Shown: in pieces, positions 10,364-44,454 of the stretch
How positions within the stretch are numbered: position 1 is the stretch's first letter
Layout: every line of letters starts with the position of its first letter
NCBI RefSeq assembly: GCF_029269265.1
Contig: NZ_JARIXP010000004.1
Location: 186,001-250,000 of the forward strand
DNA from: Rheinheimera sp. 1928-s
Lineage (GTDB): Bacteria > Pseudomonadota > Gammaproteobacteria > Enterobacterales > Alteromonadaceae
DNA length: 64,000 bases
Direction of reading: 5' to 3'
The notes under the pieces: generated by a model
Databases searched by the model: none
What the model saw: the letters and a program-made list of their open reading frames with translations, nothing else
What the model was told of the DNA's origin: nothing
Translations under genes and position numbers: made by a program

Positions 10364-10494
10364 TTCTATTCCTTTTAAAGAAAAACTAAGGGCATTGTAG
10401 CCTGATGTAGTATTAAAAAATATCGCTATGGTTATAACACTGTCGACACAAGTCCCGACCAGAGGCGCATCGACACTTTATTTTCGCTATAAAA

Positions 10495-10522
10495 AAAGCC
10501 CGGCATCAGAGCCGGGCTTTTA
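10495..10522. terminator. Intrinsic terminator after the VolA-like lipase gene
   Basis: An 11-bp perfect stem (AAAAGCCCGGC / GCCGGGCTTTT, 6-nt loop) lies just beyond the minus-strand lipase stop. The T run reads correctly on the minus strand. The rest of the 173-bp gap upstream of sohB shows no further feature. Confidence 0.85.
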
Positions 10523-10536
10523 CAGACGTAAAAGTA

Positions 10537-12945
10537 TTAGTTAGCAGGAGCCATTACAGCACCGTTGGCAACCACAACACCAGCACCACGACCCATAAAG
10601 AAGCTCACGCTTTGGCCTTGCATTTCAGTTGTTGCTGCTGCACTGGCGGTTGGGCTCAGGATAGAGCTGTGTCCACCTGCAATAAAGCGGCTTAACGCTG
10701 TGCCAGTCACAGGATAAGTACCTGCCACATTATTGACAGCAGAAGCACCTAATAAAGCAGCCAGAGGCTCAGTACCAGCCAAAGGCATAGCTGCAGAGCT
10801 ATTTGGGATCACCTGATCCGGTAACTGATCCGAGCCGTTGCCTACCACTTCAATGATATAAGTTGGGGTTTCAGAAGCCACCAGCATAGAAGCATAGTTA
10901 TTTGGATCACCCGCATCTGTTACTGTCTGCGCTGCAAAAGCAAAAGACGAGAACGAAGCGTTTAATGTGGCCAGTGCTGCCGGATTAGATACAGCAAGCG
11001 CCTGAACAAAGTCATTAAAACAAGCAGCATAAGGAGCTGTCTGACCTGCGCCACACGCGTTGTTTGTAGCAAAGTCTATGTAACCCTGAGCAGTTGCACC
11101 ACCAGCACCTAACAAGACGCTGGCTTTAATGGTTGGGCCAAAAGCAGCTGAATCCAACAGGAAGTTAGCAACAGCACCACCAGGCATAGCTAAGGTTGCA
11201 GAGCGAATGTTATATAAGGCATCCAGTTGTGCGCTGCCGGTTGTGCTGTTGGCTAATGCCACCATAGCAGTACCAGATATTGCACCCAACGAGTGACCTA
11301 AGAACTGCACGTCCTGAGTATTTAATAAACCAGGCTGGTTATTAAAATTCATGCCTAAACGTAAGCCCAGCATATCAGCGATACTTTGACGTAAATTGTC
11401 GCGAGTTACCAACAGGTTCGAGAGATTCATATAGTCTGTGGCGCTGTTAGTTGAAGCATTGATCACCAAATCGCCCACTGTAAAACCGCGACTACCATGT
11501 AACGGATGGTCAATCGCAATAGTGGCAAAACCACGAGCAGATAAAGCACCTGTGATGGCCAGCATATCTTCTTTTCTGGAGGTAATACCATGTTGCAGTA
11601 TCACTACAGGCCAGCCTGCTGCAGGTTTCACCAAACCTAAAGCGGCACCACGAACCTCGTCAGGTACTGTGACCTGCACAGCTAAGGTCTGAGTGCTGTT
11701 TACTTTAGGGATCACGTTAAACTTAGTCAGGTGACGTTGTTTGTCCAGACCAAAATCACGTAAAGCACCACCTGAAGCTGCCTTACAGAAGGCATCATTC
11801 CCCGCCTGAGCCGGATCAGTGATACTGTTTTCCAATGCAGTAATTTGCTCCTGACTCAAAGAAGCGATAATAGCGCCTGAATCACAACGAGCCATCCAGC
11901 GAGTGCTTAAAGGAGCCATTGCGTTTTCAGCTGTTGCAGCACCCAAATAGTACGGCAGGTTAATAGTACCGCTGTACAGTTTTGCCAGTTTAAAAATAAA
12001 ACGTGGGTCTGCCAGACTATCAGCGACGGCTTGTCCTGGGAACAACAGATCAGAGACCACTGCACCAGTATCCGCAATAGCGACTGAAGGAGGCGTATTG
12101 CCATTCAAAGGGCTTGGTGCCATCAACTGTTTGATAGTGGCAAACACCGGGGCAGTAGATTGAGTCGTAATAGCAGCAGTGTAGATAATGCCGGCTTTGT
12201 TAATCGACTGCGCCGAGACTGCATTTTCAAAACTGTTAATTACGCCTTGTAAAGCCAGCTGAGCCGCAGTACCTAAAGGTTTAGTCGCGATGTCTTGTTT
12301 GACCAACTCGTAAGTCGTCGAAGGAGCAACAGAACGGCCTTCACTATCTTTTAACGCATCAGTGAACACCAGAATATAAGTGGTGGCAGGTTTTAATGGC
12401 TTTAACGGGATCACAGCAATGCTGTTGCCACTGGCTCGGGTCACATAATCAACACCAAAGGTCAGACTGCCCACAGCCTTACAGGCAGCGCCACGAGGAA
12501 CAGTACGACAATCTGCATCAGGTGAAGCAGGGTCGCCCATCAGGGTTTCCACTAAATAAACTGAACCTGGTTGCTGCACACTGGCCGCATCTAAGCTGAC
12601 ACCAGAGGTAAAGCTCAGTGCAATAGTAAATGGGTTTTGGGTAGACCAGCCATCTAATGCGCCTAACGCTGTTGAAGGATCGGCGTAATTTGGTGCATCA
12701 AGATGGGCACCGGCTGCATTTTTTTCACCTGGCATAAACAAGGTACCATCTGTAGTGCCTTGTAATAACAAATCGTTAGGTGGTGATAACACGCCGTTGG
12801 CCGGGTCATAAACAACACGTGATAAAGGGATCTGAACCTCACCACCTGTTTGAGTATCGTCTTTAATTTCGTCCAGTGATTCGCCACCACAACCGGCTAA
12901 ACCTAACGCACTGGCAATAGCAAAGCTAAGCAAAAGCTTGTTCAT
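10537..12945 (-). CDS. Outer-membrane lipoprotein lipase / lysophospholipase, VolA (Pla-1/Cef) family
   Basis: The precursor has a signal peptide and lipobox LAGC (Cys19). An N-terminal region of roughly 300 residues matches the bacterial virulence-factor lipase N-terminal type (VVYDPANGVLSPPNDLLL). It is followed by an alpha/beta-hydrolase core with ILQHGITSRKEDM (oxyanion region) and the nucleophile elbow GHSLG, with Ser552 as the candidate catalytic residue. The C-terminal GGHSSIL could supply the catalytic His. VolA of Vibrio cholerae, a surface-exposed lysophospholipase of about this size, is the closest described relative I know; that link is by family resemblance. It stands alone with its own terminator and is divergent from yciK. 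Confidence 0.88.
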   Translation of the reverse strand: MNKLLLSFAIASALGLAGCGGESLDEIKDDTQTGGEVQIPLSRVVYDPANGVLSPPNDLLLQGTTDGTLFMPGEKNAAGAHLDAPNYADPSTALGALDGWSTQNPFTIALSFTSGVSLDAASVQQPGSVYLVETLMGDPASPDADCRTVPRGAACKAVGSLTFGVDYVTRASGNSIAVIPLKPLKPATTYILVFTDALKDSEGRSVAPSTTYELVKQDIATKPLGTAAQLALQGVINSFENAVSAQSINKAGIIYTAAITTQSTAPVFATIKQLMAPSPLNGNTPPSVAIADTGAVVSDLLFPGQAVADSLADPRFIFKLAKLYSGTINLPYYLGAATAENAMAPLSTRWMARCDSGAIIASLSQEQITALENSITDPAQAGNDAFCKAASGGALRDFGLDKQRHLTKFNVIPKVNSTQTLAVQVTVPDEVRGAALGLVKPAAGWPVVILQHGITSRKEDMLAITGALSARGFATIAIDHPLHGSRGFTVGDLVINASTNSATDYMNLSNLLVTRDNLRQSIADMLGLRLGMNFNNQPGLLNTQDVQFLGHSLGAISGTAMVALANSTTGSAQLDALYNIRSATLAMPGGAVANFLLDSAAFGPTIKASVLLGAGGATAQGYIDFATNNACGAGQTAPYAACFNDFVQALAVSNPAALATLNASFSSFAFAAQTVTDAGDPNNYASMLVASETPTYIIEVVGNGSDQLPDQVIPNSSAAMPLAGTEPLAALLGASAVNNVAGTYPVTGTALSRFIAGGHSSILSPTASAAATTEMQGQSVSFFMGRGAGVVVANGAVMAPAN

Positions 12946-42374: not shown

Positions 42375-42404
42375 TTGACGGCCATTTGATTTCAGGGTTT
42401 TATA
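42375..42404 (+). promoter_or_regulatory. Probable sigma-70 promoter of the trp operon
   Basis: TTGACG (42375-42380) and TTTATA (42399-42404) are separated by 18 bp, or TTTTAT by 17. Transcription would start about 50 nt upstream of the first leader peptide. I see no clear TrpR operator over it. The stretch 42236-42374 between rnm and this promoter shows nothing else certain. Confidence 0.55.
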
Positions 42405-42462
42405 GAGGCGTTTTCAGAGCGACTCACTTCAGAGTTGCCGACTAACAACGGATTTATAGCCA

Positions 42463-42516
42463 ATGCAATTTCAGACAACAACTCAAACTCACATTTGGTG
42501 GTGGCATACTCCTTAA
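42463..42516 (+). CDS. First trp leader peptide (WWW)
   Basis: This 17-codon frame encodes MQFQTTTQTHIWWWHTP, with three consecutive Trp codons at positions 12-14 and a stop at 42514-42516. The stop runs directly into ACGGGC, which can pair with GCCCGT 33 nt later. That is the arrangement of a transcription attenuator: ribosomes stalled at the Trp codons expose the antiterminator segment. The ribosome site (CGGA, about 11 nt upstream) is modest. It is too short for normal gene callers. A second leader of the same kind follows at 42637. Confidence 0.8.
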   Translation: MQFQTTTQTHIWWWHTP

Positions 42517-42550
42517 CGGGCGTGTGGAGGCGTTGTATTCGCTATAAAAC

Positions 42551-42582
42551 CAGGCCCGTTTCGAAAGATGCGGGCTTTTTTT
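42551..42582 (+). terminator. First trp attenuator terminator
   Basis: GCCCG (42554-42558) pairs with CGGGC (42571-42575), followed by seven T. The competing antiterminator is ACGGGC (42516-42521) with GCCCGT (42554-42559). It cannot end an upstream gene, because the neighbour rnm is on the other strand. Confidence 0.75.
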
Positions 42583-42636
42583 ATGTCTTTTTACAGAGTT
42601 TTATCAAGGCTTTTAACAAAAAACGGGTTAGAAAAA

Positions 42637-42687
42637 ATGAAAATAGCACAACAAAGATTCTGGCGTTGGTGGCGATTTCCTGGTTAG
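42637..42687 (+). CDS. trpL: Second trp leader peptide (WRWW), trpL
   Basis: This 16-codon frame encodes MKIAQQRFWRWWRFPG, with Trp codons at 9, 11 and 12 interleaved with Arg, and stops at 42685-42687. GCGGGC begins at the last base of the stop codon (42687-42692) and can pair with GCCCGC (42724-42729), which otherwise forms the terminator stem with GCGGGC further on. This is the classical E. coli trpL layout. A second stem CGGACAA/TTGTCCG (42694-42710) lies between. GGGTTAG upstream is a weak ribosome site. Confidence 0.85.
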   Translation: MKIAQQRFWRWWRFPG

Positions 42688-42718
42688 CGGGCCGGACAAT
42701 TATTGTCCGAATACAGCC

Positions 42719-42746
42719 AAAAAGCCCGCTTGATGCGGGCTTTTTT
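42719..42746 (+). terminator. Second trp attenuator terminator
   Basis: AAAAAGCCCGC (42719-42729) pairs with GCGGGCTTTTT (42735-42745) around TTGAT, followed by a T run. The antiterminator alternative is 42687-42692 with 42724-42729. A small hairpin CAACGC/GCGTTG (42780-42794) without a T run lies between this and trpE. Confidence 0.88.
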
Positions 42747-42843
42747 ATTCGCAGCCATCCATGGCGCTCCCCTATGGGCCAACGCTTCGCGTTGTTAAAA
42801 ATAGTTCCTGACGATTTTTTGTTTCAAGAATTTAGGAAAAACC

Positions 42844-44454
42844 ATGAATTTACAGCAAATCACCACCACCACGGGCCAAGTAGCCAGCTTCAGTCAAACA
42901 CTGAGCATTCAGCCTGATCCGCTGCAAAGTTTCAGAGCCTTAACCAGTCAGGGCCAAATGGCGTTATTACTGGAATCGGCAGAAATTGACAGCAAAAACA
43001 GTTTAAAAAGTCTGATGCTGATTGATGCTGCTTTGCGTATTGAATGCAATGCCCTAAAGGTGCAGGTTGAAGCTTTAACCGAAAACGGTAAAACCCTGCT
43101 GCCTTATCTGGCGTCTTTGCTGCAAGGCAAAGCTGAACTTGATTTGTCGTCCAACCAACTCAAAATAGAGTTTGCCAAAGCAGACCCTTTGCTGGATGAA
43201 GAAAGCCGTTTATTACTACCTAACTCACTGACGGTTTTACGTTTACTGCAGCAAAAGCTGCACAACAACAGCGACGAGCCATTAGCCATCTTTTTAGGGG
43301 GTGTCATAGGCTACGATTTAGTGGCCATGGTAGAAGACTTGCCCCAAGTGCCTAGCGCTGAAAACCAATGTCCTGACTACCTGTTTTATCTGGCTGAAAC
43401 TTTGTTAGTGGTGGATCATCAGGCAGGCAATAGCCGTCTGATTGGCAATGTGTTTTGTGGTGCGGCAGCCCAGCAGCAGTATTTTGTGATTGGTCAGCGT
43501 TTATCAGAGTTGCAGCAGTTATTACAGCAAGCAAAGAATACAACAACGGCGCAGACCATAACAGCAGGGCCTTCAGCCAAAACTGAAGTCAAAGTAGATA
43601 TCAGTGATGCCGACTTTGTCGCCCAAGTCGAAGCATTGAAACACAACATAGTGGCCGGTGATGTATTTCAGGTGGTGCCATCGCGCTGTTTCAGCCTGCC
43701 CTGCCCTGATCCACAAGCGGCTTACGCCAAACTGAAACAACAAAATCCCAGCCCTTATATGTTTTACCTGCAAGACAGAAACTTCAGCCTGTTTGGTGCT
43801 TCTCCTGAGTCGGCGTTGAAATATGAAGCCAAAACCGCACAAGTAGAAATTTACCCTATTGCAGGCACCCGTCGCCGTGGTTTTGCCGCCAACGGCAGTA
43901 TTGACCGCGACTTAGACAGCCGCATTGAGCTGGAACTGCGTCAGGACGAAAAAGAGAAAGCCGAACACTTAATGCTGGTCGATTTAGCCCGTAACGACGT
44001 AGCCCGCATCAGTGTGCCGGGCAGTCGTTATGTCAAAGAGCTGCTGAAAGTAGACAGATACTCCTATGTGATGCATTTAGTCTCCCGAGTCGTTGGTACC
44101 TTAAAACCAGAACTGGACGCTTTGCATGCCTATCAGGCCTGTATGAATATGGGCACTTTAGTGGGTGCGCCAAAAGTGCGGGCAGCGGAACTGATACGTG
44201 GTGTCGAGAAAAAACGCCGTGGCAGTTATGGTGGCGCAGTAGGTTATTTAGCTGGCAATGGTGATTTTGACAGCTGCATCGTCATTCGTTCGGCTTATGT
44301 GCAAAACGGCATGGCTTATATTCAGGCCGGCGCTGGTGTGGTCTACGACAGCGTAGCGCAAGCCGAAGCGGATGAAACCCGTAGCAAAGCTCAGGCGGTG
44401 ATTAATGCGATTCAATCTGCAGGCCAAGCTGTTGAACAAGGAGTATCAGCATGA
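42844..44454 (+). CDS. trpE: Anthranilate synthase component I
   Basis: TrpE makes anthranilate from chorismate using ammonia delivered by TrpG. The N-terminal feedback-binding motif is LLESAE (42-47). The C-terminal chorismate-binding core carries YPIAGTRRRG, DEKEKAEHLMLVDLARND, VMHLVSRVVG and GGAVGYLAGNGDFDSCIVIR. Length is 536 aa (E. coli 520). It is first in the operon and overlaps trpG by 4 bp. Expression should be set by the double attenuator upstream and activity by Trp feedback. Confidence 0.97.
   Translation: MNLQQITTTTGQVASFSQTLSIQPDPLQSFRALTSQGQMALLLESAEIDSKNSLKSLMLIDAALRIECNALKVQVEALTENGKTLLPYLASLLQGKAELDLSSNQLKIEFAKADPLLDEESRLLLPNSLTVLRLLQQKLHNNSDEPLAIFLGGVIGYDLVAMVEDLPQVPSAENQCPDYLFYLAETLLVVDHQAGNSRLIGNVFCGAAAQQQYFVIGQRLSELQQLLQQAKNTTTAQTITAGPSAKTEVKVDISDADFVAQVEALKHNIVAGDVFQVVPSRCFSLPCPDPQAAYAKLKQQNPSPYMFYLQDRNFSLFGASPESALKYEAKTAQVEIYPIAGTRRRGFAANGSIDRDLDSRIELELRQDEKEKAEHLMLVDLARNDVARISVPGSRYVKELLKVDRYSYVMHLVSRVVGTLKPELDALHAYQACMNMGTLVGAPKVRAAELIRGVEKKRRGSYGGAVGYLAGNGDFDSCIVIRSAYVQNGMAYIQAGAGVVYDSVAQAEADETRSKAQAVINAIQSAGQAVEQGVSA

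Follow-up and report, generated by a model that had tools for sequence, protein, structure and literature searches.

The question raised by this locus is whether the mRNA leader of the trp operon in Rheinheimera sp. 1928-s holds one attenuator or two complete ones in series. Trp attenuation is the textbook example of a single switch. In the window (the whole stretch of 64,000 nucleotides that was analysed), a first-pass annotation made from the letters alone had placed two units between a promoter and trpE, each with its own Trp-rich leader peptide and with the antiterminator logic of E. coli trpL. On direct reading the coordinates of both units are correct, and two serial attenuators with this logic are supported by anatomy and conservation, by two covariance models and by folds computed with the ribosome in place. 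The leader of the window holds a real and conserved serial attenuator, most likely a two-step Trp checkpoint.

Two groups of Rheinheimera genomes are compared throughout. Clade A consists of 12 genomes, including that of the window, whose TrpE proteins are at least 93% identical, while the 10 genomes of clade B have TrpE identities of 70-74%. The parts of the switch lie on the forward strand, and the promoter-like pair and both ORFs were read directly. The pair TTGACG-N18-TTTATA (42375-42404; TTGACG at 42375-42380, TTTATA at 42399-42404, spacer of 18 bases) stands 5' of both units and is identical in 12/12 clade-A leaders. Leader ORF1, MQFQTTTQTHIWWWHTP (42463-42516), contains three consecutive Trp codons, WWW, at 42496-42504 (starting at 42496, 42499 and 42502). 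Its stop codon is overlapped by segment 2 of unit 1, ACGGGC (42516-42521), the 5' arm of the antiterminator, which is complementary to GCCCGT in the terminator of unit 1 (42553-42582; GGCCCGT as segment 3, a loop, GCGGGC as segment 4 and a T run). Leader ORF2, MKIAQQRFWRWWRFPG (42637-42687), has the pattern WRWW, with Trp codons at 42661, 42667 and 42670. Segment 2 of unit 2, GCGGGC (42687-42692), again overlaps the stop codon and is found in 12/12 clade-A genomes; it is complementary to GCCCGC of terminator 2, AAGCCCGC-TTGAT-GCGGGCTT plus a T run (42722-42746), whose stem is likewise found in 12/12. Within the antiterminator loop of unit 2 lies an inner hairpin, CGGACAA-TTA-TTGTCCG (42693-42709), with a single mismatched position in 2 of the 12 clade-A genomes (L016 and L020). 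The leader is followed by trpE, the first gene of the operon (42844-44454, forward strand; Pfam Anth_synt_I_N and Chorismate_bind), and on its other side it is flanked by a divergent gene with a PHP domain (Pfam). None of the leader peptides tried matched a family in NCBIfam or Pfam.

Two further features were observed in this region. A copy of a dispersed repeat, which starts at the end of terminator 2 and runs in the direction of trpE (42737-42824), is not part of the switch. The element measures 80-90 bases, contains the inverted repeat CAACGC-TTC-GCGTTG and has 24 other matches in the genome, several of them head-to-tail; parts of it also lie between terminator 2 and trpE in four clade-A loci (L011, L012, L016, L017), and the spacer between terminator 2 and trpE varies among relatives. 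The start region of ORF1 (window 42450-42550) can pair with the bases that separate segments 2 and 3, giving a long helix whose two strands are nearly invariant in clade A. A comparable hiding of the leader start site exists in E. coli. Such a hidden start site of ORF1 could limit re-initiation.

The presence of two Trp-rich frames is far from what base composition provides: among 3000 dinucleotide shuffles of 42405-42843, none holds even one ORF of 7-36 amino acids with WWW, WxWW or WWxW, and the real sequence holds two. A simple consensus scan for promoters and terminators gave no excess over shuffles and is for this reason not taken as support; it left the TTGACG/TTTATA pair unflagged and returned one promoter on the opposite strand together with only part of terminator 2. 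The Rfam Trp_leader model (RF00513) aligns over its full length with unit 1 (24.9 bits, E 0.01) and with unit 2 (36.2 bits, E 1.1e-5), both below its gathering threshold of 41 bits, which no match within the window reaches. A covariance model named R1 was built from 55 single-unit leaders of the family, hand-picked from 113 candidates, with Rheinheimera sensu stricto, Pseudoalteromonas, Algicola and others excluded from training. On the sense strand of the window it matches 42496-42581 (49.1 bits) and 42664-42746 (47.3 bits). A weak R1 match elsewhere, on the minus strand at 10492-10577 (27.1 bits), covers a gene end and a terminator and is probably due to chance. Each unit thus possesses a short ORF with clustered Trp codons 5' of a trp gene and, as judged from sequence and folding together, a terminator whose 5' arm alternatively pairs at the stop codon of that ORF.

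Folds were computed at equilibrium from the start of each ORF, with an assumed ribosome footprint. In the transcript that ends before segment 4, the probability of the antiterminator pairing, P(2:3), is 1.00 in both units whichever Trp codon occupies the A site, and 0.00 once the ribosome has reached the stop codon; the E. coli trpL control, folded in the same way, gives 0.99 and 0.00. In the full transcript, the probability of the terminator, P(3:4), for stalls at the first, second and third Trp codons is 0.79, 0.43 and 0.16 in unit 1 and 0.46, 0.49 and 0.99 in unit 2, and for stalls at the first and second Trp codons of E. coli it is 0.95 and 0.87. The value of 0.99 in unit 2 speaks against the serial reading, though the E. 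coli values are high as well. Free of ribosomes, P(2:3) is 1.00 in unit 1 and 0.98 in unit 2, compared with 0.08 in E. coli. The ribosome-free antiterminator is thus favoured, unlike in E. coli, so that a protecting 1:2 hairpin is unsupported by these folds; small stems over segment 2 do occur in the minimum-energy folds. In these models the pairings of both units fit the classical attenuator logic, and the untranslated state is possibly different.

The closest named relatives of the window are R. faecalis, R. mesophila, a MAG and Rheinheimera sp. A13L. Among the genus genomes searched, that of the window included, TrpE is present in 22/22 and both Trp frames are also present in 22/22. Two sense-strand units are found by R1 in 12/12 clade-A loci and one unit in 10/10 clade-B loci. 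The units differ little in sequence from one clade-A genome to the next, which tempers the support from their conservation. The first-pass annotation had suggested a comparison of relatives for the conservation of both units, and this comparison bears it out for both Trp frames throughout the genus and for both terminator-type units in clade A, but not for the second such unit in clade B. The nearest other relatives, R. pacifica, R. baltica, Alishewanella, Arsukibacterium and Alkalimonas, have a single leader.

Double units are not restricted to clade A. The statement in the first-pass annotation that single attenuators are the rule in enteric trp operons needs a limit, as doubles were found in six lineages: clade A, Pseudoalteromonas, an Algicola-like group, genus g23, and f7 and f15 (here f7, f11, f12, f15 and f25 denote families of the order outside the family of the window, and g-numbers denote genera). 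Of 35 Pseudoalteromonas loci (33 so named and 2 of genus g19), 34 have two sense units according to R1; in the exception, L053, a second R1 match of 14.2 bits appears in a smaller search. The Algicola-like loci have two units in 3/3, two of these with identical TrpE, and genus g23 has two units in one genome. In an evenly drawn sample of family genomes with TrpE, two units occur in 9 of 146 (2 Rheinheimera, 4 g19, 1 g23 and 2 g30), seven of them found in the main searches and L174 and L053 in the smaller search only, and at the thresholds used and in the stretch taken R1 found no unit in 24 of the 146. An order-wide R1 search of 394 genomes showed further pairs among the best matches listed. 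Counted as same-strand matches starting at most 250 bases apart with E up to 3e-4, pairs of units occur in 5/5 genomes of f15 and 26/34 of f7. Nine of these loci were read (5 of f15, 4 of f7), each with two Trp-rich ORFs and two R1 matches, and in all nine the units stand before the gene that precedes trpE, which encodes DAHP synthase in 3/3 tested (Pfam). A TrpE tree with 71 rows, made by a quick method with no bootstrap before g23, g50, f7 and f15 were recognised, and with g23, f7 and f15 outside it, requires at least 3 changes of the double-terminator state. A different arrangement was observed in locus L395 of family f3, where near-identical Trp leaders at 229-345 and 2591-2709, each scoring 52.2 bits with R1, stand one ahead of an apparent trpE and the other further along that operon, between apparent trpG and trpD genes (gene names by eye).

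In several other lineages, the position of ORF2 is occupied by a different kind of frame. A short W-R-W ORF lies between terminator 1 and trpE in f11, f12 and f25; no terminator was seen by eye after it, and R1 finds one sense unit each in 23 such loci. The ORF TGGCGATGG is present in 21/24 genomes of f11 and 4/4 of f12. For f25, 33 loci were examined of 57 genomes with TrpE; leader 1 is present in 29 of the 33, and among these 29 loci 26 have TGGCGATGG and the other 3 have AGG in place of the first Trp codon. In the family of the window itself, genus g50 has a W-R-W ORF with a GTG start in 3 of 4 genomes, and in the fourth it is decayed. Two additional features were observed in f25. A third short ORF lies between the W-R-W ORF and trpE in several loci (L273, L362, L360 and others), with a stop that overlaps the trpE start (ATGA), and this overlap may couple the translation of trpE to that of the third ORF. 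The W-R-W ORF of genus g76 in f25 (L287, L289, L293, L385) is longer, with 44 amino acids and a conserved tail, TDDDIASQVIRQIPDDQH, and the one member compared has no Pfam or NCBIfam match.

Several measures relate these ORFs to the translation start of trpE. Complements of the trpE Shine-Dalgarno (SD) region at or just 5' of the Trp codons, counted without a chance control, are 5-10 bp long in f11 and clade B; found in the same way, those of clade A measure 4-7 bp and those of f25 3-5 bp. In clade B, f11a, f11b and f12, a stall opens the trpE start region by a larger mean change than in shuffles (0.17-0.21 compared with 0.02-0.05). Single sequences are mostly not significant, the mean fraction of 40 shuffles that are as good being 0.07-0.17 and in one case up to 0.78. 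Neither clade A nor the two f25 groups showed opening beyond shuffles; for f25, the start of the extra ORF before trpE was used, and the own start of trpE was analysed separately. When ORF2 was tested against the SD regions of other groups, the effect was weak: the own SD is favoured over most others in f11a, f12, f25 and clade B, and no such preference appears in f11b or clade A. With moderate confidence, these models suggest that the W-R-W ORF of clade B and of two of the three other families may pair near the ribosome-binding site of trpE and act on translation. Translational attenuation by ORF2 is accordingly a hypothesis for some lineages, and in f25 it is unsupported. A broader reading, which we regard as tentative and rather doubtful, covers f11, f12, f25, Rheinheimera clade B and g50, whose W-R-W ORF is mostly TGGCGATGG with no clear terminator. 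The second Trp ORF would be an overlooked and widespread second sensor of trpE; in some lineages a stall in it would free the ribosome-binding site of trpE, joining transcriptional and translational attenuation in series, and in the clade of the window it would have become, or would always have been, a second terminator. If true, one ORF position switches between two levels of control.

The repressor TrpR was also considered. No genome out of 147 in the family has a Pfam Trp_repressor match over the cut-off (8 weaker matches lie below it), and the E. coli control is positive. The control is positive in B. subtilis as well, so that this model is not strictly specific for TrpR. Over-cut-off matches are present in 35 of 109 genomes of the order and in 4 of 24 of f11; the 34 genomes of f7 have none (one weaker match), and the five f15 genomes are absent from the order-wide matches. 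In f11, the genomes with TrpR are G197, G267, G272 and G280; ORF2 is kept in three of them (L340, L339, L352) and decayed in G197, and it is likewise decayed in G274, a genome 79% complete in which TrpR was not found. The terminator-type doubles recorded here are confined to lineages where TrpR was not found. The loss of TrpR is not established as the cause of doubling: an over-cut-off match is missing from all 147 family genomes whatever their number of units, and since the single-unit relatives are without TrpR too, this loss alone does not explain the doubling.

Taken together, the established anatomy, conservation and compatible pairings make it quite probable that the trp mRNA leader of the window comprises two independent, complete, ribosome-mediated transcription attenuators that act one after the other on a single transcript and multiply repression. 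A ribosome that completes a short ORF would cover segment 2 at the stop codon and leave the 3:4 terminator to form. With charged tRNA-Trp in short supply, the ribosome would stall at the Trp codons and the 2:3 antiterminator would form instead. A polymerase that passes unit 1 would then meet ORF2, where a new ribosome must load, and would undergo a second test. The readthroughs of the two units would multiply, giving trp control a wider range and higher sensitivity in a lineage without detectable TrpR. What we infer here is that both ORFs are translated, that transcription terminates at both sites and that the effects multiply, and the multiplied or steeper repression proposed in the first-pass annotation is a reasonable inference.

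Four other explanations need to be weighed, of which an unlikely one is that regulation is exerted by unit 1 only, unit 2 being a duplicate that is idle or in decay. Clade B offers evidence in its favour. By eye, L021, L022 and L024 have no terminator 2, that of L023, L025 and L026 is weak, L027, L028 and L030 have the hairpin but no T run, and L029 is ambiguous, in keeping with the one unit found there by R1. The first-pass annotation had named relatives that keep one leader while the other frame decays as evidence against serial attenuation, and clade B shows this picture in part, for the terminator but not for the frames, as both Trp frames are retained. In clade A, selection on the peptide of ORF2 is barely evident (pN/pS 0.83). 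However, segment 2, segment 3 and the W-x-W-W Trp codons of unit 2 are kept in 12/12 amid variable flanking DNA; R1 also scores unit 2 about as highly as unit 1. In clade B, LISWRWWQFS is retained in 10/10, and the pN/pS of ORF2 is 0.34 in frame, compared with 0.97 and 1.29 in two shifted frames and 0.64 for ORF1. Control of trpE translation as the chief role of unit 2 in the clade of the window, by hiding the ribosome-binding site, is quite unlikely. The W-R-W ORFs of f11, f12 and clade B do fold in this manner on average, but in clade A the trpE start barely opens on a stall (mean unpaired 0.53 to 0.56), a third of shuffles match this opening (mean fraction 0.33), and a full terminator is present there instead.

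The two remaining explanations concern the promoter and the signal. A TTTACA at 42590 had been put forward as a possible second promoter, by which unit 2 would serve a separate shorter transcript and the units would act in parallel. This hexamer occurs between the units in 2/12 leaders of clade A and 0/10 of clade B, and an internal promoter is rejected on these counts; the upstream pair, by comparison, is kept, being similar in 10/10 clade-B leaders (second hexamer TTTATA in 5, TTGATA in 3 and TTTATG in 2; spacer 18-19), and the sole match of the promoter scan lies on the opposite strand. Parallel units are thus very unlikely. Least likely of all is that the units sense different signals, Trp in one and Trp plus Arg in the other, as the W-R-W-W pattern in the window had led the first-pass annotation to suggest. 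In favour of Arg, its codon in W-R-W is CGA in 58 of 60 ORF2s outside clade A (a count that leaves out L263 and g50), although in the longest frames at these loci CGA accounts for 0-12% of the codons for Arg. Yet ORF2s without a third Trp were picked by a CGN pattern, so that Arg is partly built into the selection and the third base is the sole free count. Within clade A the residue in W-x-W-W varies (His in 8, Arg in 3 and Leu in 1 of the 12), which leaves a response to arginyl-tRNA unsupported. Two serial attenuators for the same signal, Trp, are accordingly the preferred reading.

The control of trp is described as attenuation alone in B. subtilis and as regulated initiation plus attenuation in E. 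coli in the accessible part of a 2026 paper (PMC13178558), and double attenuation would constitute a third layout beside these two. Elf and Ehrenberg have modelled why attenuation is sensitive (PMC1183508, in part), a sensitivity to which another unit, acting independently, would probably contribute. No report of serial Trp attenuators was found in the open-access literature searched, a scope that leaves most subscription papers outside. They are undescribed in the accessible parts of PMC3641672, PMC10314930, PMC13178558, PMC1183508, PMC2659441, PMC4833913 and PMC11995493, and a term search within PMC1262725 gave no match in the text available. Conserved serial copies in several lineages where TrpR was undetected offer a natural experiment on how repeated sensing of a single signal sets the range and sensitivity of repression, and on whether a repressor can be replaced by a second attenuator. 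Where annotation assumes a single leader for each operon, the second ORF would be overlooked, and the wider distribution of the W-R-W ORF makes the second leader position a subject in its own right.

E. coli trpL has the same kinds of parts as each unit, with a leader ORF containing Trp codons, segment 2 as ACGGGC right after the stop, and a GCCCGC/GCGGGC terminator with a T run. A divergent gene lies upstream in both cases, the PHP-domain gene here and, across trpL from trpE, rnm in E. coli, whose product, RNase AM, is a PHP protein. The differences are the two full units in series, the fact that TrpR was not found, and the different ribosome-free fold; unlike the members of RF00513 at threshold, both units of the window also score below the gathering value. 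The mefA/msrD operon, as far as the accessible part of PMC10314930 describes it, similarly has two attenuators, the second ribosome-mediated with an intrinsic terminator, and its authors speak of a double-lock system. There, macrolides are sensed and the second attenuator acts on msrD only, and the two are not in series before the same gene. The tandem attenuators of Salmonella mgtCBR, according to the part of PMC3641672 that was available, resemble the leader of the window in having two short ORFs, each acting on transcription. The two ORFs of mgtCBR sense different signals, ATP and proline, and its stem-loops are unlike intrinsic terminators, whereas in the window clustered Trp codons occur in both units, judged on sequence only, and both ORFs are accompanied by intrinsic terminators.
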